Origin: Bacilli bacterium
GTDB lineage: Bacteria; Bacillota_I; Bacilli_A; RF39; UBA660
Length of the DNA stretch: 64,000 nucleotides
Direction: 5' to 3'
NCBI GenBank assembly: GCA_017484205.1
Contig: JAFUTO010000018.1
Coordinates: 62,001 to 126,000 of the forward strand
Made by a program: the position numbers and the translations under genes. Position 1 is the stretch's first letter. Every line of letters begins with the position of its first letter. Positions 1 to 13,642 of this stretch are shown here, piece by piece. The notes beneath the pieces are model-generated. The model was not told the DNA's origin and did not search any database. It worked only from the letters and a program-made list of their open reading frames with translations.

Positions 1-441
1 GGATCTTGATAATGCTACTGGAACTGTATAATGTTGAATTAATATTTCCAAACTTTTTAAGTAATAAGGTAACATTTGATCTATTTGGTGCAAATTTGCC
101 TTATAATAATTTTTTAAACTTGTATATGAACTTTTGAATACAATATATCCACCAGCTAAAGCTATTAAAGCATATACAAATTTAAAATTTTGTAAGAACA
201 AAAATATTAAAGCAACAATAGTTATTAAACCATTTCTTACTCTTTGGCCATATAGTTTATTAACATCTAAATCGCCTGTTTTATATTTAATACTCAATAA
301 GAATTCATAATCATCTTCTTTTAAGAACATGAAATAAGGTTGAGTTTCATATATGAATTTATTTAAATCAATTCTTTTGTTATACCACATTACAAATAGT
401 ATCAATGCAGTAATAATTATAAACATTATTCCTATACTCAT
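1..441 (-). CDS. TadC-like type II secretion system F-domain membrane protein (partial)
   Basis: The first 147 codons of a minus-strand gene that runs off the left edge. It starts at ATG 441, sharing one base (TAATG) with the stop of the preceding gene. Visible are an N-terminal membrane segment (about residues 3-19) and another hydrophobic hairpin around residues 77-105, followed by an amphipathic stretch beginning HQIDQMLPYYLKSLEIL, which resembles the start of a T2SSF domain. Tad operons normally carry two such inner-membrane platform proteins in tandem, TadB then TadC; its position directly after the TadB-like gene makes TadC the likely identity. The C-terminal T2SSF domain lies outside the window, so the assignment rests largely on context. 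Confidence 0.6.
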   Translation of the reverse strand, partial: MSIGIMFIIITALILFVMWYNKRIDLNKFIYETQPYFMFLKEDDYEFLLSIKYKTGDLDVNKLYGQRVRNGLITIVALIFLFLQNFKFVYALIALAGGYIVFKSSYTSLKNYYKANLHQIDQMLPYYLKSLEILIQHYTVPVALSRS

Positions 442-1346
442 TACTCTTCACCTACATTCTCATTATAATATTTTTCACCACTTAGGATGAAGAATGTGTT
501 TAACATTACAACAACATGTAGAAGTATTTGTACTAACACATTTTCTAATAATTTAATATAAGAGTCAACACCTACCATCATTTGAACTAACATTATCATT
601 AAATATAAGACAATACCAAATTGTAAGAATTTTTTGTGGAATGCAGCTCTATCCATTCTATCACGATAAACTCCTTCAACTAATTGGTCAATATCCAATG
701 ACATGTTTTCAAGTGGTCCTGATGCATCTTTAGAACCTTCATTTGTTATTTGCAAGAATAATTGGTGCATATTTCTAACCATATAATAATCATACTTATT
801 GTTCATATAAGATAATGATTCATCTATAGAACCATTCTGCATTGCTAAATCTAGCATTACTTTAACATCAGCCTTAACTGGATCTTCTAAAACTCCTGAT
901 TCATATACACCTTCAAGTGATTTAACAAATGATTGAGTTGTTGCAAATTCCATTATTGTATTTGTAGTATATACTTGTATTTGTTCAAATAAGAACTCAC
1001 TATATACTCTCTTACACCTTAAATATGATAAATAAGGAATAGTAGATATAGCGATTATTATATATACTATACATATAATTAAGTTATAAAAATATAAATA
1101 TGAAATTACACCTGCACCTGCTCCAAAAGCAACTATTTGGACTATATATTGTCTAGGTGTAAAATCTTGGCCTAAATCTTTAACCTTTTCACGGATTACC
1201 TTATATGAGAATGGTGCATATTTATCATATATACTTTTACTTTGCCTAACGATAAATTTATATACACCCTCTTTACTGTTTCTTCTATATAATATTAGAA
1301 ATATTAATATTAAAGTTACAAGTAAAAACGTCGTCAAAGGTGCCAT
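441..1346 (-). CDS. TadB-like type II secretion system F-domain protein
   Basis: A 301-residue polytopic protein: N-terminal TM about residues 3-20, a TM pair about 70-110, a cytoplasmic T2SSF-like helical domain about 115-235 (containing FVKSLEGVYESG and MHQLFLQITNEG), and two C-terminal TMs about 240-290. This is the layout of TadB, the inner-membrane platform that couples the ATPase to pilus or pseudopilus assembly. It lies 11 bp after the TadA-like ATPase gene and overlaps the next gene by one base, so it sits within one operon. Size is normal for TadB (about 300). The family call comes from topology and context; no residue-level signature was checked. Confidence 0.7.
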   Translation of the reverse strand: MAPLTTFLLVTLILIFLILYRRNSKEGVYKFIVRQSKSIYDKYAPFSYKVIREKVKDLGQDFTPRQYIVQIVAFGAGAGVISYLYFYNLIICIVYIIIAISTIPYLSYLRCKRVYSEFLFEQIQVYTTNTIMEFATTQSFVKSLEGVYESGVLEDPVKADVKVMLDLAMQNGSIDESLSYMNNKYDYYMVRNMHQLFLQITNEGSKDASGPLENMSLDIDQLVEGVYRDRMDRAAFHKKFLQFGIVLYLMIMLVQMMVGVDSYIKLLENVLVQILLHVVVMLNTFFILSGEKYYNENVGEE

Positions 1347-1357
1347 ACTATCCCTCC

Positions 1358-2776
1358 TTACCCATTATTTGTTTGATTCACTACACCTGGCGTTGCCGGT
1401 GTTACCGGTGCCACTGGAGTAGGATTTGGTGTTGGAGTTGTTCCAACACTTGGCGTACTCGTAGTTGGAGTACTTGGAGTGCTAACTGGAGTAACTGTTG
1501 GAGTTACTGGAGTTGCACTTGTAGTTTGCGCTACTGTAGATGTTTGTGGCGCTACTGGAGTTACTGGTTTTTGAACTGGTGTTGGAGTTGGAACTACTGG
1601 TTTTTCAGCAGTCACTGCTTCAGGTTTCTTTTCTTCAGCAGGTTTTTCTTCTCCTGACACTTGAGCTTTTTCAAATTTAGCTCCATTTGGTAACTCTGGT
1701 GCCTCATCATCTATAGTATTAGTTTCTTGAATTGGAGGCAAAGTTATACCTTGTGCATCCAAATAATCAATTAAATATTTTGTTGGATTACTTCTAATCA
1801 TTCTACCATCTGATGTTTTACGATATATCAAATGACTTTTTGGTACATTGTTTTCATCAACATAGAATTCTGAAATATCCGCGATTTCTCTTTTAAATTT
1901 CTTTGTTACTTTATCTTGTCTACCTCTTATACATACACCTAATTGAATATATCTATATACAGTTGTTAAGAATTGCGTAACATCTTGACTTGTTTCCATC
2001 AAACTGTATAGACGCATAGGAATTGATGCTGATTTATCAGCATGGATTGTTGATAAGATAAAGTGTCCTGATGAAATAGAGTTTCTGACAGCTGTAACAG
2101 CTTCAGCACTTCTGACCTCGGATAGTAATATCCATATAGGGTTTTGACGCATACAAGCAACTAATACATCACTATAAGAAGCAATATTATTAGTTTTCAA
2201 TGTAACTATATCTCTATGAGGAAAAATTCTATCCAAGTGAAGTTCTAGAGTATCCTCTATTGTAATGATTTTTTCATTTTCATTAGTTTTAGAAGCTAAG
2301 TATTTAACAAACTCTGTTTTACCAGAACCAGTTTCTCCACAAACTAGAATATTACAATGACCTTGTACACATGTAATTAAGAAATCATGAATATCCTCTG
2401 TAATATAATCTTCATTTAATAATTTTTGTTTCTCTAATCTGATTTTTGCTGGTGTCTTACGAATAACGCAGGCAATACCATTTTTAGAGATTGAATCATG
2501 TATGAAGTTCATACGTAATTCAGCACTTTCACTATCCAGCATTGGATGAGCCATATTAAATGTCTTACCCATTGCATTTGAACATTGGAAAGCTAATTTT
2601 TCCATAAATGCATTGTTTATGTTAGGGTTTTCTACACGATAATTACCTTGAGATAATGTTTTTAAGTGTATTTGACTTTGTGAATATGAAACATCGGTTA
2701 CATCATCGTTATCTAAATACTCTTGTAATGGCCCAAAATCTAGTTGGGAGAATACATTTTCATTACTTTCTTCCAT
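1358..2776 (-). CDS. TadA/CpaF-type secretion ATPase with Pro/Thr-rich C-terminal tail
   Basis: A 472-residue VirB11/CpaF-family hexameric ATPase that would power assembly or secretion by the Tad-like machine from the cytoplasmic face. Walker A is GETGSGKT at 147-154. The Asp-box region ITIEDTLELH is at 171-180. The Walker B-like element is WILLSEVRSAEA (about 215-226), where many family members have GE, so Ser replaces the usual Gly. The His box STIHA is at 242-246. The ATPase core ends near residue 365. Residues about 370-472 are low-complexity, rich in Pro, Thr, Val and Glu, then PTPTP-like repeats, which is unusual for a cytoplasmic motor. It lies 8 bp downstream of the CpaB-like gene. 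Confidence 0.88.
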   Translation of the reverse strand: MEESNENVFSQLDFGPLQEYLDNDDVTDVSYSQSQIHLKTLSQGNYRVENPNINNAFMEKLAFQCSNAMGKTFNMAHPMLDSESAELRMNFIHDSISKNGIACVIRKTPAKIRLEKQKLLNEDYITEDIHDFLITCVQGHCNILVCGETGSGKTEFVKYLASKTNENEKIITIEDTLELHLDRIFPHRDIVTLKTNNIASYSDVLVACMRQNPIWILLSEVRSAEAVTAVRNSISSGHFILSTIHADKSASIPMRLYSLMETSQDVTQFLTTVYRYIQLGVCIRGRQDKVTKKFKREIADISEFYVDENNVPKSHLIYRKTSDGRMIRSNPTKYLIDYLDAQGITLPPIQETNTIDDEAPELPNGAKFEKAQVSGEEKPAEEKKPEAVTAEKPVVPTPTPVQKPVTPVAPQTSTVAQTTSATPVTPTVTPVSTPSTPTTSTPSVGTTPTPNPTPVAPVTPATPGVVNQTNNG

Positions 2777-2783
2777 AAGTCAC

Positions 2784-3623
2784 CTACTCTTCTACAGTAG
2801 TATCTTCTTCTTCAGATGGAATAGTTTCCTCTGTAGCCTCATCTAAATCAGAATCAAGTAAGTTAACTGTTCTAGCCTCAATATAATTTTCTAATTCAGC
2901 AATATCTACTTGTAAGTCACCTTGAACAGGTACCATACCTCCATGAGGTACTGGGAATAATTCAACTCCCTCACCTTTTAAGTAAACAGCTTTTCTAAGT
3001 AAAATATGTATTTTTTCAGGAACACCAAATAGCAAGAATGCAGGTGCTTTAGTATCATTTACATCTTCAAATACATTTTTACCTTGTGAATCCTTTACAG
3101 CTAATACTTCAACATTTTCTAATAATCTACCTACCATGATTTGATCATTATCATCTTTAGCTTTCATATAAATATCAATCATATTACCAGGATATATAGA
3201 GTTACCATAAGTAGTTTCTATATTAACAGCAAATTGATAAGGAATATCTCCTTCTTTAACATCAGTAAATACTGAATCTGGTAATGCCTCTTTATTAACC
3301 AATATACCATTATAGAACATACTACCAGCTGGGATAGTAACGTTTATATTAGTATATTTTCCTATAATATTTGTTGTATTAGTGATTACATCTTCTGATA
3401 CAGCAATTTTAGGCACTTTAATACGTGATATCATATCACTAGTTATTTCAGTTCTAGGTTGAATAGTTGCCTTAGCTACAGGAACTGAAACAGGGTTAAC
3501 AGAACTATTAATTTGGCTTTGATATCCCCAATATAATAATCCTAAAATTATGATTACGGCAATAACTGTAACTATATTTTTATTACCTATAAATCTTTTT
3601 AATCCAATTAATATATTATTCAT
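2784..3623 (-). CDS. CpaB/RcpC-like SAF-domain pilus assembly protein
   Basis: A 279-residue protein with one N-terminal TM (about residues 17-34), then a SAF-type domain (about 45-115: VPVAKATIQPRTEITSDMIS, a typical SAF opening) and a second extracytoplasmic domain (about 125-230). The tail is acidic (Glu/Thr-rich, about 250-279). CpaB/RcpC proteins of Tad systems have this order and are thought to act at the cell envelope during Flp pilus export. It lies between the pilin-like gene and the ATPase with short spacers, as expected for a Tad operon. The start is supported by an AAAGGAA-type Shine-Dalgarno sequence upstream of the ATG. Confidence 0.75.
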   Translation of the reverse strand: MNNILIGLKRFIGNKNIVTVIAVIIILGLLYWGYQSQINSSVNPVSVPVAKATIQPRTEITSDMISRIKVPKIAVSEDVITNTTNIIGKYTNINVTIPAGSMFYNGILVNKEALPDSVFTDVKEGDIPYQFAVNIETTYGNSIYPGNMIDIYMKAKDDNDQIMVGRLLENVEVLAVKDSQGKNVFEDVNDTKAPAFLLFGVPEKIHILLRKAVYLKGEGVELFPVPHGGMVPVQGDLQVDIAELENYIEARTVNLLDSDLDEATEETIPSEEEDTTVEE

Positions 3624-3639
3624 ATCTTTTTATTCCTTT

Positions 3640-4047
3640 CTAATATGGTGTTTCCAATATAGCATCAAGTTTATTATCTAATCGAAAACTAACATTTTCA
3701 CTTTTTAAGAAGTTCATGCCACCAACATGAGTTTTTACTTTCAAACTGACTTTAGGTGGGTATTCATTTACATCATAAATACTTATAGTATATTTTTTGC
3801 CTAATGATGCATTTTCAGCAAATCTTCTTAAGAAGTTTTCAACAAATTTTTCTCTATCTATTTGTATTATACCTTTATCACGGTAAGCAATCAAATCAAC
3901 TGCATCAATCATTGCGCCTTCTGTACATTCCATCATAAGGTTAAAATTGTGTTCGTCAGTTGTTGTTATATCTTGAAAAAAGTATATCAAGAATAAACAA
4001 GCTATTCCCATTAAAATGATAAATACACCCCAAAACGATTCTTTCAT
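3640..4047 (-). CDS. Small single-TM pilin- or TadE-like protein
   Basis: A 135-residue protein beginning MKESFWGVFIILMGIACLF, i.e. one N-terminal TM (about residues 5-25) that continues into an amphipathic helix (about 30-60), then a small alpha/beta domain ending RLDNKLDAILETPY. This shape, hydrophobic N-terminal helix first and globular domain after, matches pseudopilins or TadE/F-like minor components, but no clear prepilin peptidase site (Gly before a hydrophobic stretch with Glu at +5) is present. It sits 12 bp after the giant exoprotein gene and 16 bp before the CpaB-like gene. I recall similar short proteins of unknown function beside Tad genes in uncultured Bacilli. Function inferred from topology and context only. 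Confidence 0.5.
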   Translation of the reverse strand: MKESFWGVFIILMGIACLFLIYFFQDITTTDEHNFNLMMECTEGAMIDAVDLIAYRDKGIIQIDREKFVENFLRRFAENASLGKKYTISIYDVNEYPPKVSLKVKTHVGGMNFLKSENVSFRLDNKLDAILETPY

Positions 4048-4059
4048 TTTAACCTCCTT

Positions 4060-7000
4060 CTAATACCTACAGGCATTCCAATCATTGTCATTACTTTTTC
4101 GTGACCAACCATAGCATGTTCCAGTAGCATCTTGGAAATATATTCCATTATTATTACTTGATAAGAATGTACTAGAACAATACTCACCATTTTTACATTC
4201 TAGTGTATCATAATCTGCATAATTATATTCTTGTTCTTTATTATAATTTCTAATAGCTCTTATATTATTAGCACCTAATACAAATTCATACATAGGAGTT
4301 TTCTTATATACTTCTTCTGTAGTTACACCTCTATTTTTTGTAATAAACGCATATGTTTTAGTAACAAAACTTCCATTTCTATCTATAACATTTCCATTCC
4401 AGTTACTACCAGGAGTTCTACCATCTTCGCCATTTTTTTGAACGCCATGTTCACCAGGGAACGGGTTATCTAGTGATATCGGTCTATATATTATGTTAAA
4501 TCCATGGTTATTAGGATCCAGACCTTCTTCCACTACACCACAGGTGTTAGTCTCACAACATGCATCAGGACATTTTTTAATTAAAACATCAACATAATAT
4601 TCACATTTATAATCAACACTTGGATTTATTGTAACCTTATTTCTAAAGTCTCCTCTACCTGTTGGTATTGAACTACTACAAGTTCCACTTAATCCACCTT
4701 TTGCAAGTTGTGTAAATTTATTACTATCACCAAATAGTTTTACTTGAGCAGAACTATCATAATAGAATGAGTAGTAATATGTATATTTACCTTCATCACT
4801 ATCAAAACTAATAGGTAAAGTAGGATATCCAAAGTCCTTATATGGTTCAACATATTGAGCTTCACCTTCAGTATTATATGATCTACCATTTTTAGACATA
4901 TATCTATATGTATCAAATTCTAAAGTATATGTATACTCTTTTTCAGTAATTTGAACAACGTAATCATTTACTGGATAATAGAAGTCTTTTGCTACACACT
5001 GTTGATAATTACCTTTACAGTCCCATTTGGATGTAAGGTATTTAGCACCATATGCAGTTTGAGTTGCAGGACTAGATACTTGTTCTTGTAAACTATAATC
5101 TTTATAATATGCTGTTTGAGAATTCTTTTTCACATCTTTAGATAGAAGATGTGTAACATCTGAATAGTGTTGTTCACCATACGTAAACGTAAGATCTGGG
5201 TCGAAATCATCGTAATCTCTTTGAAAGTTATTACATTGCATTATCCATTTGATATATTGTTCACGCAAATTATACAATCTTCGATATTCTCTTGCAGTCG
5301 AATGTTTTTCATTCCATACGCGATTTCTCTCAGGCCAATAATTTGAATGACGCCAAGAGGTACCCTCGTTAGTATCATAATACCTAGATTCTCCAAAATA
5401 ACCATTTTTTTCGAAAGATGCATAATGATATTTTTTGATATATGTTGGTCCAAGATGATCATCTTTCCATACTTGGCAATTGCTTAAACTAGTTTTATTA
5501 TCACATGTTTTTTCTTCTTTTCCGTACGTTTCTTCGTTGCGTTTAGAATATCCATCAGAACAAGTAGCAGATATGCCTTCATATTCCCACTGTTCATTTC
5601 CATCTTCATCTGTATAACTACGTTTGCAGCCCCATCTATTATTTTGAACCCAGTCTCCGCCTAATCTTGAAGAACATTCTGTTGTTTCGTGATAAGTATC
5701 ATACATATTTTTTACACAATCATATTCCACATGAGCATTAGTATAGTCATATCCATCACCAGAAGTTTTTGTGCAGTTGAAAGTCGTCATTGTTGCATTT
5801 TCCCATTCAGTGCAACTGCATATAGACGTCGATTTAACTTTTTCCCAAGTTTTGCAATCATTTTGTGAATGTCCTAGTTCTTCAGTTTTATATATTTTTT
5901 CATCGCTTTGCGCGTCTAGAAATGCTTGAAGTTGTGCTTCTGCATTTTGCCATGCATCATAAGCAACTTTTAATTCTGCATTTACTTTTTCATAATCTTT
6001 TTCAAATTGTTTCCAATTAATATTTGCATTTGCTGTAGTACCATCTTTAGAAGCAGTTCTACATGTACTGACACCAGTCATACGACCTGGATCCAATACA
6101 TATACGCTTTCATCAGTATCAAATTTATAGTCTTCTGCACCTTCTATTGCAATTTTAGTTCCAGAAAGTACAGTAAATGGCCCAGAAAAACTATAATTAA
6201 CTTCTTCTCTACAAGCTACTGTACAATATGGATTAGAAGAAAATTCATAACTTGCTAATTCATCAACATTATAGAATTTACCAGCATAAGTATCGGAAGG
6301 AGCATCATATTGTTTAAATATACAAGCCCATTCCGCAAGAGAACCTCCTATATCCCCAATATCATTAACATATCCTTCTGAAGAAGCATTACAATCTGTT
6401 GCAAATTCAGATGTTGGACATATTGAACATGTATTAGGAGGACATGTATTAGTCAAAGGATCATAATTTGGCATTCCAGGTCCACAATCAGGAAGTTTGC
6501 CTTCTTCTTCCGGGCAATCTGGTCGTCCTTCGCAACATTTACCTAACCAAAAGTGAGCAGCTGCCCAACCTTCATTTGAGGAAATAACTTTAGCCCTAGT
6601 AGGTGTGCCAGATACAACTGATAAACCGGCCGTAGGTTTATCAGTAACTCTTAAATATCGAGCCGCATTTTGAAAGTTTGAAGCCGCAGTTTGATCAGCC
6701 ATTTTAAACACTTCCGTTACCGTTCCATAATACGCTTGTTCCATACAACTTGTATCAGTATTTTTAAAGAACATCAAAGGTTCAAACAAAACATAATGTC
6801 CAAAGAAAGAGTCATTTGAAAAATTAGTTGTGTTATACCCAAGCAAATTTAATAACCAAATCGTTTCAGCTGAAGTTGGTGAAAGCATAGTAGATTCTAC
6901 ATATGCCCTTAGCTTTTCATAGCTACGGCCAGACATACCTTGCCAATATACTAGAGATATGGTCCCGTTAAAATGTGTAGCTAAACCAGCGCCATTAAGT

Positions 7001-7410
7001 ACTTCATTTTTATAATATGTTCCTCCAGAAGTATACCATTTGACAGTACTACTTGTACTTGCCAAACCATCACCTGATTTTCCATCAACTAAGTTAAAAG
7101 AAGAATGAGTCCAGCTTAAATCTACAGATTTAGTTCCAGCAACTCTATTACCACTACCATCAACTACAGTAGCTCTAACACCTTGAAAAGATGTATTATA
7201 ACTTACTCCACCAACTTTAAAGTTTTCATTACCATGTTGACAGCCTGCGTTAACCTTTCCCTTAGTACTATTGCCGTCGCTACCGCTAAAGTTCGCACCT
7301 CCAAGACTACAATTATAACCTGCGCATCCACCCGCCTTAACATTAACAGTACCATTAAAGCTTATAGCCATAGCAAGCATTATTAATAGCAATAATATTT
7401 TTTTCTTCAT
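4060..7410 (-). CDS. Giant cysteine-rich secreted protein of the Tad-like operon
   Basis: A 1116-residue exoprotein with a clear signal peptide (MKKKILLLLIMLAMAISF followed by small residues, cleavage near residue 26). It has about 40 cysteines, many in close pairs (KCC, CCET, CPPNTC, SICSC), and is rich in Tyr, Asn, Ser and Gly. There is no internal TM or LPXTG-type anchor; the chain ends in ACRY. A short Ala/Glu-rich coiled coil (about residues 475-515) splits the protein into an N-terminal part with Pro/Cys-rich linkers and a very Tyr-, Trp- and Cys-rich C-terminal part. I recognise no family. Its place inside the Tad-like operon, next to a membrane-anchored exoprotein, suggests a surface or pilus-associated adhesin or tip protein; this is inference. 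Disulfides are expected from the cysteine content. Confidence 0.8.
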   Translation of the reverse strand: MKKKILLLLIMLAMAISFNGTVNVKAGGCAGYNCSLGGANFSGSDGNSTKGKVNAGCQHGNENFKVGGVSYNTSFQGVRATVVDGSGNRVAGTKSVDLSWTHSSFNLVDGKSGDGLASTSSTVKWYTSGGTYYKNEVLNGAGLATHFNGTISLVYWQGMSGRSYEKLRAYVESTMLSPTSAETIWLLNLLGYNTTNFSNDSFFGHYVLFEPLMFFKNTDTSCMEQAYYGTVTEVFKMADQTAASNFQNAARYLRVTDKPTAGLSVVSGTPTRAKVISSNEGWAAAHFWLGKCCEGRPDCPEEEGKLPDCGPGMPNYDPLTNTCPPNTCSICPTSEFATDCNASSEGYVNDIGDIGGSLAEWACIFKQYDAPSDTYAGKFYNVDELASYEFSSNPYCTVACREEVNYSFSGPFTVLSGTKIAIEGAEDYKFDTDESVYVLDPGRMTGVSTCRTASKDGTTANANINWKQFEKDYEKVNAELKVAYDAWQNAEAQLQAFLDAQSDEKIYKTEELGHSQNDCKTWEKVKSTSICSCTEWENATMTTFNCTKTSGDGYDYTNAHVEYDCVKNMYDTYHETTECSSRLGGDWVQNNRWGCKRSYTDEDGNEQWEYEGISATCSDGYSKRNEETYGKEEKTCDNKTSLSNCQVWKDDHLGPTYIKKYHYASFEKNGYFGESRYYDTNEGTSWRHSNYWPERNRVWNEKHSTAREYRRLYNLREQYIKWIMQCNNFQRDYDDFDPDLTFTYGEQHYSDVTHLLSKDVKKNSQTAYYKDYSLQEQVSSPATQTAYGAKYLTSKWDCKGNYQQCVAKDFYYPVNDYVVQITEKEYTYTLEFDTYRYMSKNGRSYNTEGEAQYVEPYKDFGYPTLPISFDSDEGKYTYYYSFYYDSSAQVKLFGDSNKFTQLAKGGLSGTCSSSIPTGRGDFRNKVTINPSVDYKCEYYVDVLIKKCPDACCETNTCGVVEEGLDPNNHGFNIIYRPISLDNPFPGEHGVQKNGEDGRTPGSNWNGNVIDRNGSFVTKTYAFITKNRGVTTEEVYKKTPMYEFVLGANNIRAIRNYNKEQEYNYADYDTLECKNGEYCSSTFLSSNNNGIYFQDATGTCYGWSRKSNDNDWNACRY

Positions 7411-7421
7411 AATCTCACCTC

Positions 7422-8069
7422 CTACAAATCAAATGCATTTCTTTTATTTATAATAAATCTAACTCCGAATGTTATAACTAACACTCCGATAATTATATAC
7501 AAATAGTTTTCAAATACAAAATTTGATATATAATCAAATATTGTTGATAAACTTAAATCTTTTTGTTTTTGTTTTTCTTCTTCTGCTTCTTTATATTCAT
7601 TCATTTTCTTTTCAAATTCAGCTCTAGTCATACTTACTTTTTGCCATTTACTACAAATACTATATGATTTACCTTGGCATAAAGGATCATTATAATATTT
7701 ATTGTAATAAGGCAAATTAACATTTTTGACAATCAAACTTTTTGAAAAGCAATCTTCCTTAGATGTATATATTTCAAATTTTACATTAGAACCTGGTTCA
7801 TAACCAGTTAATATAATTTCTTTTTCATTATTATAACGATGTTCTATTTTTTTTGCTGTTTCATATATATATAAATCCTCATTCAAATTAGTTAATGTTA
7901 TATTAAATGTAACTTCACCATTTACTTCTACATAATCATAAGAAGTAGTTACATTGCTAGCTAATTTACGTAATCTTGCTTTTTCAGTATTGCTGCAGAA
8001 ATCAAAGGCCTTAGCAGATGTAGGTAACAATAATATTATAAATAGTAGTAATATTAACTTATCTTTCAT
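7422..8069 (-). CDS. Membrane-anchored extracytoplasmic protein, first gene of the Tad-like operon
   Basis: A 215-residue protein with a signal peptide (residues 1-21, ending SAKA), a beta-rich outer domain (about 35-150) with five cysteines, an Arg/Glu/Lys-rich helix (about 148-170, KKMNEYKEAEEEKQKQK) and a C-terminal TM (about 189-207) with a short basic tail. It would be anchored with its domain outside. The middle contains YYNKYYNDPLC, a Tyr/Cys-rich style shared with the giant protein encoded 11 bp downstream. No family recognised; a docking or chaperone partner of the large exoprotein is a reasonable guess. An extended -10 promoter directly upstream suggests that it opens the operon. 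Confidence 0.7.
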   Translation of the reverse strand: MKDKLILLLFIILLLPTSAKAFDFCSNTEKARLRKLASNVTTSYDYVEVNGEVTFNITLTNLNEDLYIYETAKKIEHRYNNEKEIILTGYEPGSNVKFEIYTSKEDCFSKSLIVKNVNLPYYNKYYNDPLCQGKSYSICSKWQKVSMTRAEFEKKMNEYKEAEEEKQKQKDLSLSTIFDYISNFVFENYLYIIIGVLVITFGVRFIINKRNAFDL

Positions 8070-8089
8070 AGCCTAGCCTCCATTATATT

Positions 8090-8118
8090 ATTATATCATA
8101 CAATTTTCTTTTTGAAAA
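8090..8118 (-). promoter_or_regulatory. Promoter of the Tad-like operon
   Basis: On the minus strand TATAAT (8090-8095) is preceded by TGA, giving an extended -10 element, with a weak -35 TTTTCA 17 bp upstream (8113-8118). It would start transcription about 15 bp before the Shine-Dalgarno sequence of the first operon gene. No other promoter this good was noticed between here and the left edge, which supports a single transcript for the downstream Tad-like genes. Confidence 0.6.
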
Positions 8119-9729
8119 TCATTTTATTATATATTCATATTGTTTATTTCTAATTGTTAATATCAATTTTATATTAGTTGCAGTTTCCATTTCACCAGGG
8201 ATTGCAATATATAATGTTTTTGATGAATTTGTATATGATGGAGATACCCTAGGTAAATTAGTTACTGTCTTAGTTTTATCTCCTATTGTATATTCTAAAA
8301 CACCATAAGAATTTATAATATCATATAGAGTATTTAAATTAGATTTTTCATCTAATGTTGCTGTACCCGTTATTTTTAATAAAATTCTATCTGCAGTTGT
8401 TTCTAAAGGTGCATATATATATTCATAAGATGCAATAGTTTCTTTTCCGATTGTATAGTTATAATTTATTTTGAACCTTTTAGCAATTTCTGCTTTTGTT
8501 ATATTTAAAGTGCTGTTTTTTAACACTGTATCACTTAAATTTATATCTTCGCCACTATTTATAGTTACAGGGGATGCAACATTATCAAGCCTAACAGGTT
8601 TGATTGGTATAGTTATATATGAAGGAATCAAATCTTTTCCTTTAATTCCGATTGAAGTAATAAATCTAAGTTTCATTTTTCTTTTTACAAAATTATTAGG
8701 GATAGTAAACGCTAGGGCTTTGTTTTGAGTTGTTCCAGCAAGTATTTCTTCTGAATCATAAATAGTACCCAAATCATAAACTCCATCTCTATAAGTATTA
8801 ATATTTCTAAACTTATGATTACCAATGCTCAATTCTACATTTGCTGTTACAAGATTTGTATTCTTTTCTGTATTATTTTTAACTTCAAATGGTATAACGA
8901 CTACAGTCATATTATCATTTAATCCTGTCAATGTATTACCATTATAGCTTAATCTTGTAGCATAAGCATCAGTCATTTTAAAGGTTAAACCATTAACAGT
9001 AAACGCTTGATTCATTTTTTTCCTAGTACCGCCGCCAAAAATAGCACCTAAGATAATTATAATAATTATTAAAGCAGCTAATATGCCAATACCAACATTG
9101 ATTAAAAATTTATGTTCCTTATAGATATAGCTTAAGTTTCTTGTTCTAAAGTTAAATCCTCTTTTCATTTTATTAGTATCGACATTGACATTAACTTCAA
9201 ACTCTTCGTTATCTTTTTCTTCTATTTCTAATTCTTCTAAATCTTTACCAAAATCAAATTGTTTAATATCAAAACCAACAGCTCTTACTAAACATTTTAT
9301 AAGTGGGAATGTCTGCGCTAAGAAAGAGATTGTAATTAAATCTCTAACTAGTTTTATAGTTCGCATATTTAAAACGTTGATTACCATAGAAGTAAATTGT
9401 GATTTACCTAATAAAAACATCACAAGTACATAAAAATATATTACAAAAATAATGACATATAACTTATTTGGTTTTTTCTTAATTAACATTATCCAAAACA
9501 ATAAAACGCATAATGCCATTATTAATAATGTTACAAAGAAAAGCATACCCGGAAATGCAGCAGTTGGTACATTAGGACCAAGAAGAACTAATTCTGAAGT
9601 AAAGTATTCATCGTACACTGACATAATATTAAATGTTTTTGACATTACATAAACCATTAAAGCAGTTATAATAACGTGTATTAGTTTGAAATGTTTAATC
9701 AGAAAAGCATAAGGCTTTCTAAGTACCAT
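8119..9729 (-). CDS. Polytopic membrane protein with C-terminal beta-rich ectodomain
   Basis: A 536-residue protein of unknown function. ATG 9729 is chosen because AAGGGGAT lies just upstream; a longer GTG start at 9771 would overlap a -10-like box. There are four hydrophobic segments in residues 1-165 (an YckC/RDD-like or VanZ-like look, not diagnostic), an acidic linker (about 165-190), a fifth TM (about 208-232, very Ile-rich) and then about 300 residues of beta-rich extracellular sequence whose first part resembles Ig-like DUF4352-type domains (AFTVNGLTFKMTDAYATRL; VIPFEVKNNTEKN). It is read separately from, but in the same direction as, the Tad-like operon, so a link to that system is possible but unproven. 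Confidence 0.65.
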   Translation of the reverse strand: MVLRKPYAFLIKHFKLIHVIITALMVYVMSKTFNIMSVYDEYFTSELVLLGPNVPTAAFPGMLFFVTLLIMALCVLLFWIMLIKKKPNKLYVIIFVIYFYVLVMFLLGKSQFTSMVINVLNMRTIKLVRDLITISFLAQTFPLIKCLVRAVGFDIKQFDFGKDLEELEIEEKDNEEFEVNVNVDTNKMKRGFNFRTRNLSYIYKEHKFLINVGIGILAALIIIIIILGAIFGGGTRKKMNQAFTVNGLTFKMTDAYATRLSYNGNTLTGLNDNMTVVVIPFEVKNNTEKNTNLVTANVELSIGNHKFRNINTYRDGVYDLGTIYDSEEILAGTTQNKALAFTIPNNFVKRKMKLRFITSIGIKGKDLIPSYITIPIKPVRLDNVASPVTINSGEDINLSDTVLKNSTLNITKAEIAKRFKINYNYTIGKETIASYEYIYAPLETTADRILLKITGTATLDEKSNLNTLYDIINSYGVLEYTIGDKTKTVTNLPRVSPSYTNSSKTLYIAIPGEMETATNIKLILTIRNKQYEYIIK

Positions 9730-9762
9730 AAGTTCATCCCCTTTACTATCTTTACTATATAT

Positions 9763-9791
9763 AGTATACACTAGAATTGCTAAAAAAAAAA
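9763..9791 (-). promoter_or_regulatory. Possible promoter for the polytopic membrane protein gene
   Basis: Minus-strand TATACT (9763-9768) lies 33 bp before ATG 9729; the -35 position 17 bp upstream falls in a T tract (TTTTTT) and is poor. The box lies inside the alternative longer reading frame, which argues for the shorter start. Confidence 0.4.
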
Positions 9792-12319: not shown

Positions 12320-12353
12320 TATGTGATATATTTAATACATAAGAAATATGTCG

Positions 12354-12384
12354 AAGGAAGTAGTATAAAAGCTACTTCCTTTTT
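12354..12384 (+). terminator. Intrinsic terminator or attenuator hairpin ahead of the ORF6N gene
   Basis: A 10-bp stem AAGGAAGTAG (12354-12363) / CTACTTCCTT (12372-12381), 8-nt loop, then T residues to 12384. It may end the yfhO-like transcript. The ORF6N Shine-Dalgarno AGGAGG begins only five bases later, so any promoter for that gene must lie upstream of the hairpin and be read through it. Confidence 0.7.
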
Positions 12385-12400
12385 GTTTAGGAGGGATTAT

Positions 12401-13642
12401 ATGAATGACATAATATTAAAAGATATAAGTAGTATGATATATGAAGCAAGAAATAAATATGTAATATTAGATAGTGATTTAGCTAAGTTATTTGGAGTGG
12501 AGACTAGAGTATTGAATCAAACTGTTAAAAGAAACTGCGAAAAATTTGATAATAATGTATATTTTCGTATAACTGAGAGTGAATATATAAATTTGAAGTT
12601 GGTATTGTCGACTTCAAGAGATGACTTGAAATCACAATTTGTGACTTCAAGTTTAGAAAATAATTATGGTGGTTCAAGAAAAGGACATACTGTTTTCACC
12701 CGTGAAGGAGTATCTATATTAAGTAGTATTATGAGAAGCGATAGAGTAAAGGAAGTAACAAAAGAAATACTATACGAATTTGATAAGTTAGAGAATGAAA
12801 ATAGTCTTATAATTAAAGGGCATAACATTAAAAGTATGATATATGAAATTAGAGGGAAGCAAGTTATATTAGATAGTGATTTAGCATATTTATATCAGTG
12901 CAAAAATGGTACAAAAGAGATAAATCAAGCTGTAAAAAATAACCTTGATAAATTCCCTTCAAATTATGTTTTTCAGTTAACTAAAGATGAGTGTGAGAGA
13001 CTTTCAAGGTCAAAAGTTTTGACCTTGAACGAAGGAAGAGGACACAATATTAAATATTTACCTTATGTTTTTACTGAACAAGGTGTAGTTATGTTAGCAA
13101 CAATTCTCCATACCAAAATAGCTATAGAAACTAGTATAATGATTATTGATGCTTTTGTTGTGATGAAACATTATTTAACTGAACACGGAGATATATATAA
13201 ATCAATTAATCATCTAAATAACAAAGTTATTGAACATGATGAAAAGATAGATTTATTATTATCTGAATTCAATCCAAAGGAAAGACTTTATCTAGCTGGA
13301 AAAACTTTTGAAGCATATTATGACATTATTGATATTTTCAAAAAAGCAAAAAAGGAGCTGATTATTATAGATGGATATGTTGATAGAAGTATGCTAAACT
13401 ACATTAAAGAAATTAAATCTAATATAATCATTATTACCAAAACAAATAGTAAATTATCTGATTTTGATATTCAAAAATATAATGATGAATACCATAATTT
13501 AAGATTAGTATATAACGATAAAATTCATGATAGATATTTTATTATAGATAAAAAAGATATATATCATTGTGGTACTTCTATAAATAAGCTTGAAGATAAA
13601 TTTATAATAGATACTATACTTAAAGAAATAAAAATAGTTTGA
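12401..13642 (+). CDS. Protein with two ORF6N (KilA-N-like) domains and a PLD-like C-terminal region
   Basis: A 413-residue protein; ATG 12401 follows AGGAGGGATT at ideal spacing. Residues 1-130 and 140-265 are two tandem ORF6N domains: both start with I-MIYE-R-K-VILDSDLA-L, followed by VFTEQGV-ML or VFTREGVSIL. ORF6N domains are DNA-binding modules common in phages, plasmids and mobile elements. Residues about 295-413 (FEAYYDIIDIFKKAKKELIIIDGYVD ... HDRYFIIDKKDIYHCGTSIN) resemble a phospholipase D-like fold with a degenerate H-D/R motif, as seen in proteins fused to ORF6N. It is likely cytoplasmic, with a regulatory, defence or toxin-type role. AT content matches its neighbours, so transfer is not evident. 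Confidence 0.75.
   Translation: MNDIILKDISSMIYEARNKYVILDSDLAKLFGVETRVLNQTVKRNCEKFDNNVYFRITESEYINLKLVLSTSRDDLKSQFVTSSLENNYGGSRKGHTVFTREGVSILSSIMRSDRVKEVTKEILYEFDKLENENSLIIKGHNIKSMIYEIRGKQVILDSDLAYLYQCKNGTKEINQAVKNNLDKFPSNYVFQLTKDECERLSRSKVLTLNEGRGHNIKYLPYVFTEQGVVMLATILHTKIAIETSIMIIDAFVVMKHYLTEHGDIYKSINHLNNKVIEHDEKIDLLLSEFNPKERLYLAGKTFEAYYDIIDIFKKAKKELIIIDGYVDRSMLNYIKEIKSNIIIITKTNSKLSDFDIQKYNDEYHNLRLVYNDKIHDRYFIIDKKDIYHCGTSINKLEDKFIIDTILKEIKIV

Follow-up and report, generated by a model that had tools for sequence, protein, structure and literature searches.

A cysteine-rich exported protein family encoded beside Tad-like pilus genes in uncultured Bacilli

The stretch of DNA analysed here (the window, 64,000 nucleotides within a 130-kb contig) encodes a Cys-rich exported protein of 1116 aa that is very probably a partner of a Tad-like pilus, a reading that gene context supports well. 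Because its gene adjoins Tad-type pilus genes across the lineage, the protein would most likely be the outer part of that pilus, an extracellular end piece acting as tip or adhesin (probability about 0.5). It has an export signal and no anchor, its Cys residues are conserved, its gene lies next to DUF5411 and Tad genes, and it persists in genomes in which it is not adjacent to them. The initial annotation had taken it for a surface protein, exported and rich in disulfides, with no recognisable family; this holds in part, given the conserved Cys and the absence of a family match, but that reading left out the Tad-like pilus cluster and the type IV secretion (T4SS)-type genes adjoining the gene, which are the main result.

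The cluster lies on one strand, and all coordinates given for it in the window are on the minus strand. Its conserved first gene encodes a 550-aa membrane protein of unknown function (8119..9771; ORF list and synteny). There follows a 215-aa protein with a signal peptide, four invariant Cys and a C-terminal membrane helix (7422..8069; alignment and synteny), which adjoins the Cys-rich gene (4060..7410) on one side; the adjoining partner on the other is a 135-aa DUF5411 protein with an N-terminal membrane helix (3640..4047; PF17424, 8.2e-49). Next come a CpaB/RcpC-like protein (2784..3623), matching PF16976 (2.8e-6) and TIGR03177 (8.1e-11) below the curated cut-offs (27.7 bits vs 28.8 and 41.7 vs 71, respectively), and a CpaF/VirB11-type ATPase (1358..2776; PF00437, 5.2e-28), which belongs by this match to the CpaF/TadA secretion ATPases, the TadA and VirB11 equivalog models matching far below their cut-offs. 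The TadB-like membrane protein (441..1346; synteny) is named by position and size only; it and the TadC-like protein that follows match nothing in Pfam or NCBIfam, and their position, size and pairing fit. The same strand continues with a 63-aa Flp-like pilin (4 Cys, no NCBIfam match), two TadE-like proteins, a CpaE-like protein, a 358-aa protein and a VirB2-like protein, then with a DUF1016 nuclease, a TrbL/VirB6-like protein (TrbL, 8.3e-4), a PrgI-like protein and VirB4 in two parts (NF045975, 5.4e-103, below its cut-off), and ends with a protein weakly matching C39 peptidases, a 251-aa protein and VirD4 (PF02534, 2.2e-53). The names TadB, TadC, TadE, CpaE, VirB2 and Flp follow position, size and topology, not significant family matches, and PrgI a weak match only (E 0.059).

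This one-strand stretch of Tad-type and VirB2/VirB6/PrgI/VirB4/VirD4-type genes spans G000:C19:46573-71771 (window 441-9771, L017, L211). With source-genome queries, the order from Tad genes to VirD4 recurs in six further genomes (G001, G031, G011, G032, G218, G247); the distant G118 and G242 have the Tad part, and no VirB4/VirB6/VirD4 part was found in the stretches examined. A conjugative element was not adopted as the explanation of the whole cluster: no relaxase lies inside it, the two relaxase matches of the source genome being on other contigs, and only 12/38 sampled genomes have such a match. The DUF1016/YhcG-type nuclease (PF06250, 9.1e-36; L017:6905-7804, C19:56908-57804) sits between the VirB6-like and VirB2-like genes. 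Outside the cluster, the source genome (1.27 Mb, 1,273,173 bases examined, 34 contigs, 92.5% complete) has prepilin peptidase A24 domains (3.4e-35 and 4.5e-16). Separately, contigs C1, C2, C6, C11, C12 and C33 encode many GFTLIELLAV-type prepilins, with a prepilin peptidase at C1:40481-41251, which suggests a separate type IV pilus or pseudopilus set. Elsewhere in the window, a 439-aa protein (12323-13642) beside a YfhO-like gene consists, by eye, of two repeated halves starting near IYEIR/ARxKxVILDSDLA.

The association of the Cys-rich gene with its neighbours extends well beyond this genome. Among 78 named loci (80 were collected via DUF5411, 78 of them with enough upstream sequence), the Cys-rich gene is directly upstream of DUF5411 in 59, and for 18 of the 19 loci lacking an adjacent copy a homologue is present elsewhere in the genome, often as a single gene amid unrelated genes. 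The order 215-aa protein, Cys-rich protein, DUF5411, CpaB, CpaF, TadB, TadC, TadE1, TadE2, CpaE-like is the same across genera. In one genome (G031) three Cys-rich copies occur in tandem, each separated from the next by a 215-aa gene, and in another (G006) about 1,040 more residues follow the DUF5411 domain in the same frame, giving a fused protein with 44 Cys. In divergent clades the trio remains together, made up of a 240-250-aa gene, a Cys-rich one of about 1,060-1,520 aa and DUF5411. DUF5411 itself, found in 315/385 genomes of the order, carries C-terminal extensions in these clades; all three that were scanned (L237, L236, L240) are fusions to an M15 D-Ala-D-Ala peptidase domain, L237 also containing fn3. 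Because of this fusion, DUF5411 is suggested to face the cell wall. Its similarity to TadE covers about 25 N-terminal residues only, at low probability, and DUF5411 as a minor pilin is therefore unproven.

The Cys-rich gene is a single open reading frame, as the initial annotation had it, and lies on the minus strand, which had not been given. Residues 1-25 (7336..7410) form the signal peptide region, with a putative cleavage site, a hydrophobic segment and a helix at 2-16 in the model; this N-terminal helix is the sole membrane segment found, in line with the earlier view of a signal peptide and no anchor. The C-terminus reads ...NDWNACRY, as described before, and the previous estimate of about 40 Cys becomes a count of 39. 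In the mature 1088 aa these amount to 3.6%, vs a mean of 0.72% in other predicted exported proteins of the source genome, none of which has as many Cys. Two earlier compositional impressions did not survive: the protein is only mildly Tyr-rich (7.7% vs 5.5% for the proteome, rank 109 of 778 proteins >200 aa), and its Cys are not in close pairs beyond chance, with 11 neighbour gaps <=6 vs 7.5 +/- 2.2 expected (461/5000 simulations as high). The same genome encodes two neighbouring giant exported proteins of about 7,150 and 2,360 aa (G000:C17:41814-63260 and 63407-70480).

An AlphaFold2 model built from 42 sequences is of moderate quality (mean pLDDT 60.1, pTM 0.50). The better-modelled beta regions are about 74-99 with 206-230, 397-453 and 740-882. 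Two helices are predicted confidently, residues 466-503 (5902..6015; pLDDT about 74-94) and 691-727 (5230..5340; about 78-95), and would pack as the two arms of an antiparallel pair in the model. They flank a Cys-rich insertion of low confidence (residues 505-690; 5341..5898), which in alignments is variable between homologues and shrunken or missing in short ones. This agrees with the helical region parting Cys-bearing halves that had been noted as a short coiled coil. The most conserved part in the alignments is the C-terminal domain (residues 965-1116; 4063..4518), with the motifs IIYRxISLxNPFPGxxGxxRxPGxNW ... CxxxxGxxCxS ... C ... C. For the shortest homologue (L028, 526 aa) the model is of low confidence (mean pLDDT 56.6).

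Judged by its sequence relatives, the protein is not an orphan but a member of an undescribed family. A profile of 14 homologues finds a member in 149/243 sampled genomes of the same bacterial family; the 42 aligned homologues share 21-32% identity, and the members first collected range from 526 to 1294 aa. Beyond the bacterial family, only three genomes of a class-wide sample give matches, weak ones (E 1e-4 to 1e-5) confined to the N-terminal region. The named relatives are MAGs of uncultured Bacilli/Mollicutes obtained from rumen, gut and elsewhere, with rumen and digesters as examples of their anaerobic habitats; they include Candidatus Pelethosoma and Candidatus Faecisoma, which NCBI places in Mycoplasmatota. 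The lineage may correspond to GTDB order RF39. Searches of Pfam, NCBIfam, PHROGs, PADLOC, PDB sequences, and phage and plasmid records with the protein gave no match, and Foldseek found no hit for its model (E<=0.001) when run against PDB and viral models. The earlier statement that no family is recognisable is thus borne out by sequence databases and fold search alike, with no confident enzyme match, and an enzyme, phage, plasmid or defence origin was rejected on the lack of matches in the sequence databases and phage and plasmid records.

If the protein is the end piece of the pilus, it would be exported via the Sec pathway and, once across the membrane, take up a fold of several beta domains plus a pair of long helices bearing a variable Cys-rich head, stabilised by disulfides. 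Since it lacks a pilin-type N-terminus, attachment would need other subunits; DUF5411 and the membrane-anchored 215-aa protein may hold it to the pilus encoded by the same cluster, at the tip of which it would be adhesive. Variable length and a variable Cys-rich insertion, together with a retained C-terminal domain, fit a variable exposed part. Several observations count against a tip: the protein matches no tip adhesin in sequence or structure, one genome group has the gene away from the pilus cluster amid unrelated genes, and the DUF5411-M15 fusions also fit a role in the wall zone. Those fusions, with membrane anchors on both neighbours and the wide presence of the family, are also consistent with an envelope-spanning part of the pilus base, a conduit or collar giving rigid passage through the wall, with DUF5411 and the 215-aa protein as its membrane components. 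This is unlikely, as the wide size range of the members first collected and the three tandem copies in G031 speak more for a variable part that is exposed.

The signal peptide, the lack of an anchor and the cluster's VirD4, VirB4 and VirB6-type genes would also suit a secreted substrate, that is, an effector or matrix protein released or delivered by a joined Tad/T4SS machine. We consider this rather doubtful: neither sequence nor fold matches a known enzyme family, family members retain the architecture, and a Sec signal makes export by such a machine unnecessary. It is improbable that the protein is independent of the pilus, a surface or exopolymer-binding protein with adjacency reflecting shared regulation only; about a quarter of the named loci do have the gene away from DUF5411, several amid unrelated genes, but adjacency is kept over many genera and both gene neighbours are kept in divergent clades.

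The Cys positions are conserved between homologues, a test proposed in the initial annotation. No residue is better conserved than Cys across 69 aligned non-redundant homologues (mean 0.65 vs 0.23 over all positions; 0/20,000 permutations as high). Because aligners reward Cys matches, the C-C score was lowered from 9 to 4 in an alignment of 36 sequences, and Cys still ranks first (0.47 vs 0.225; 0/20,000). When Cys is masked as X, the overall excess is gone (0.28; 3293/20000, not significant), although C396, C400, C450, C726 and C1078 remain at 0.67-0.95. The masked run relied on a faster algorithm and is likely to be unfair to masked columns, which makes the lowered-score control the fairer one. 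Twelve Cys are kept in at least 90% of sequences in the 42-sequence alignment: C340 and C936, which are invariant, and C328, C363, C396, C400, C450, C726, C1072, C1078, C1099 and C1114. Some of the variable Cys columns are gained or lost jointly, in correlated groups. The pilin-like ORF has an even number of Cys in 66/66 loci (mostly 4, else 2, 6 or 0) and the TadE-like proteins have two invariant Cys; among adjacent Cys-rich genes that are complete, 34/50 are even. These parity counts are not independent of phylogeny and use approximate mature starts. The protein is probably held together by disulfide bonds.

How such bonds would be made is less apparent. Searches that detected their positive controls find no DSBA (PF01323), Thioredoxin_4 (PF13462), VKOR (PF07884) or DsbB (PF02600) match in the source genome. 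The lack of a thiol oxidase, previously remarked on for the window, therefore extends genome-wide for these families, and the genome search for DsbA/BdbD-type oxidases proposed with it comes out negative; the idea of a missing oxidising pathway is weakened by six exported thioredoxin-like CxxC proteins, none of them in the window. One carries a signal peptide and CEHC, and its multi-TM fusion partner shows CcdA-like motifs (by eye; Pfam weak); two are lipoproteins (CPWC and CSAC). Of the three anchored ones, one has CSHC and a C-terminal anchor (PF13098, 7.6e-6), one has both CTYC and CQYC (PF13098, 4e-9), and one has CNEC and a weak match only. The six candidates lie at C29:15182-16369, C29:21596-22267, C17:80406-81119, C10:39347-40168, C10:9211-9630 and C12:61182-61688. 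The genome also has two short thioredoxins (PF00085). Only 4/117 sampled genomes of the family match Thioredoxin_4, in frames of about 400 aa that equal in size the thioredoxin/CcdA-like fusion of the source genome. At G000:C29:14931-16369 a small thioredoxin gene precedes the gene for this exported fusion with its multi-TM region, and the pair is a possible electron conduit across the membrane. That the Cys bind metal or stay as free thiols is very improbable: the undetected oxidases and the anaerobic habitats of the relatives would allow it, but the even Cys numbers in exported parts (66/66 for the pilin-like ORF), the correlated changes of variable Cys columns and the six CxxC proteins argue against it.

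The source lineage comprises small-genome uncultured Bacilli of animal guts, rumens and digesters, and nothing on their attachment was found in the literature searched. Being widespread, quick to vary and linked to a Tad-like pilus, the Cys-rich exoprotein is a concrete attachment candidate. It also raises the question how so many disulfides would be made here without detectable DSBA, Thioredoxin_4, DsbB or VKOR proteins. Neither the Cys-rich family nor the Tad-VirB arrangement is described in that literature, which left preprints and most subscription papers outside its scope. More speculatively, the Tad genes and the VirB2/VirB6/PrgI/VirB4/VirD4-type block might form one chimeric machine, part Tad pilus and part T4SS, typical of these gut Bacilli, with the Cys-rich family as its disulfide-armoured outer tip contacting host or neighbour cells. 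Such a machine, doubtful as it is, would join two pilus and secretion superfamilies usually treated apart.

Large exported proteins at a pilus tip are known from type IVa pili, where PilY1-type adhesins are helped by minor pilins (cited in PMC12075869). The Cys-rich protein is likewise large and exported; it has no PilY1 or other Pfam match, and no PilY1 family is found in any of 14 members. With the T4SS of Gram-positive bacteria and Mollicutes (ICE VirB4 Mbov_0397, TrbL/VirB6, VirD4) the cluster shares VirB4, TrbL and VirD4 matches, whereas it has no relaxase inside and is joined to Tad genes in a conserved order. DUF5411, CpaF and a PilC/GspF-type protein also occur together in a predicted secretion operon of Roseburia, Ruminococcus and Eubacterium (Miller et al., 2022, PMC9523054). 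These operons of gut Clostridia resemble the present cluster in this; the partner named there has remote, partial Internalin-B homology, and the passage on them mentions neither the Cys-rich family nor VirB/VirD4 genes (PMC9523054). Further parallels are the KilLMN complexes of the Kil Tad pili of Myxococcus, interchangeable tips with large extra domains (PMC12075869), and TadG/CpaL (PMC12607857): like the Cys-rich protein, these have extra exposed domains, belong to a tad cluster beside TadE-like proteins and occur in several versions. KilN, TadG and CpaL are pilin-like, with an N-terminal pilin helix, and CpaL has a vWA domain. The Cys-rich protein, in contrast, is rich in Cys, matches nothing in sequence or fold and has, in place of the N-terminal pilin helix and prepilin cleavage site of TadG/KilN, a Sec-type signal peptide with no other membrane helix; because it lacks the helix defining those proteins, it is not classed with TadG, CpaL or KilN. 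In overall shape, the two long helices and beta scaffold of the KilN4 extra domain (PMC12075869) broadly resemble the AlphaFold model of the Cys-rich protein.
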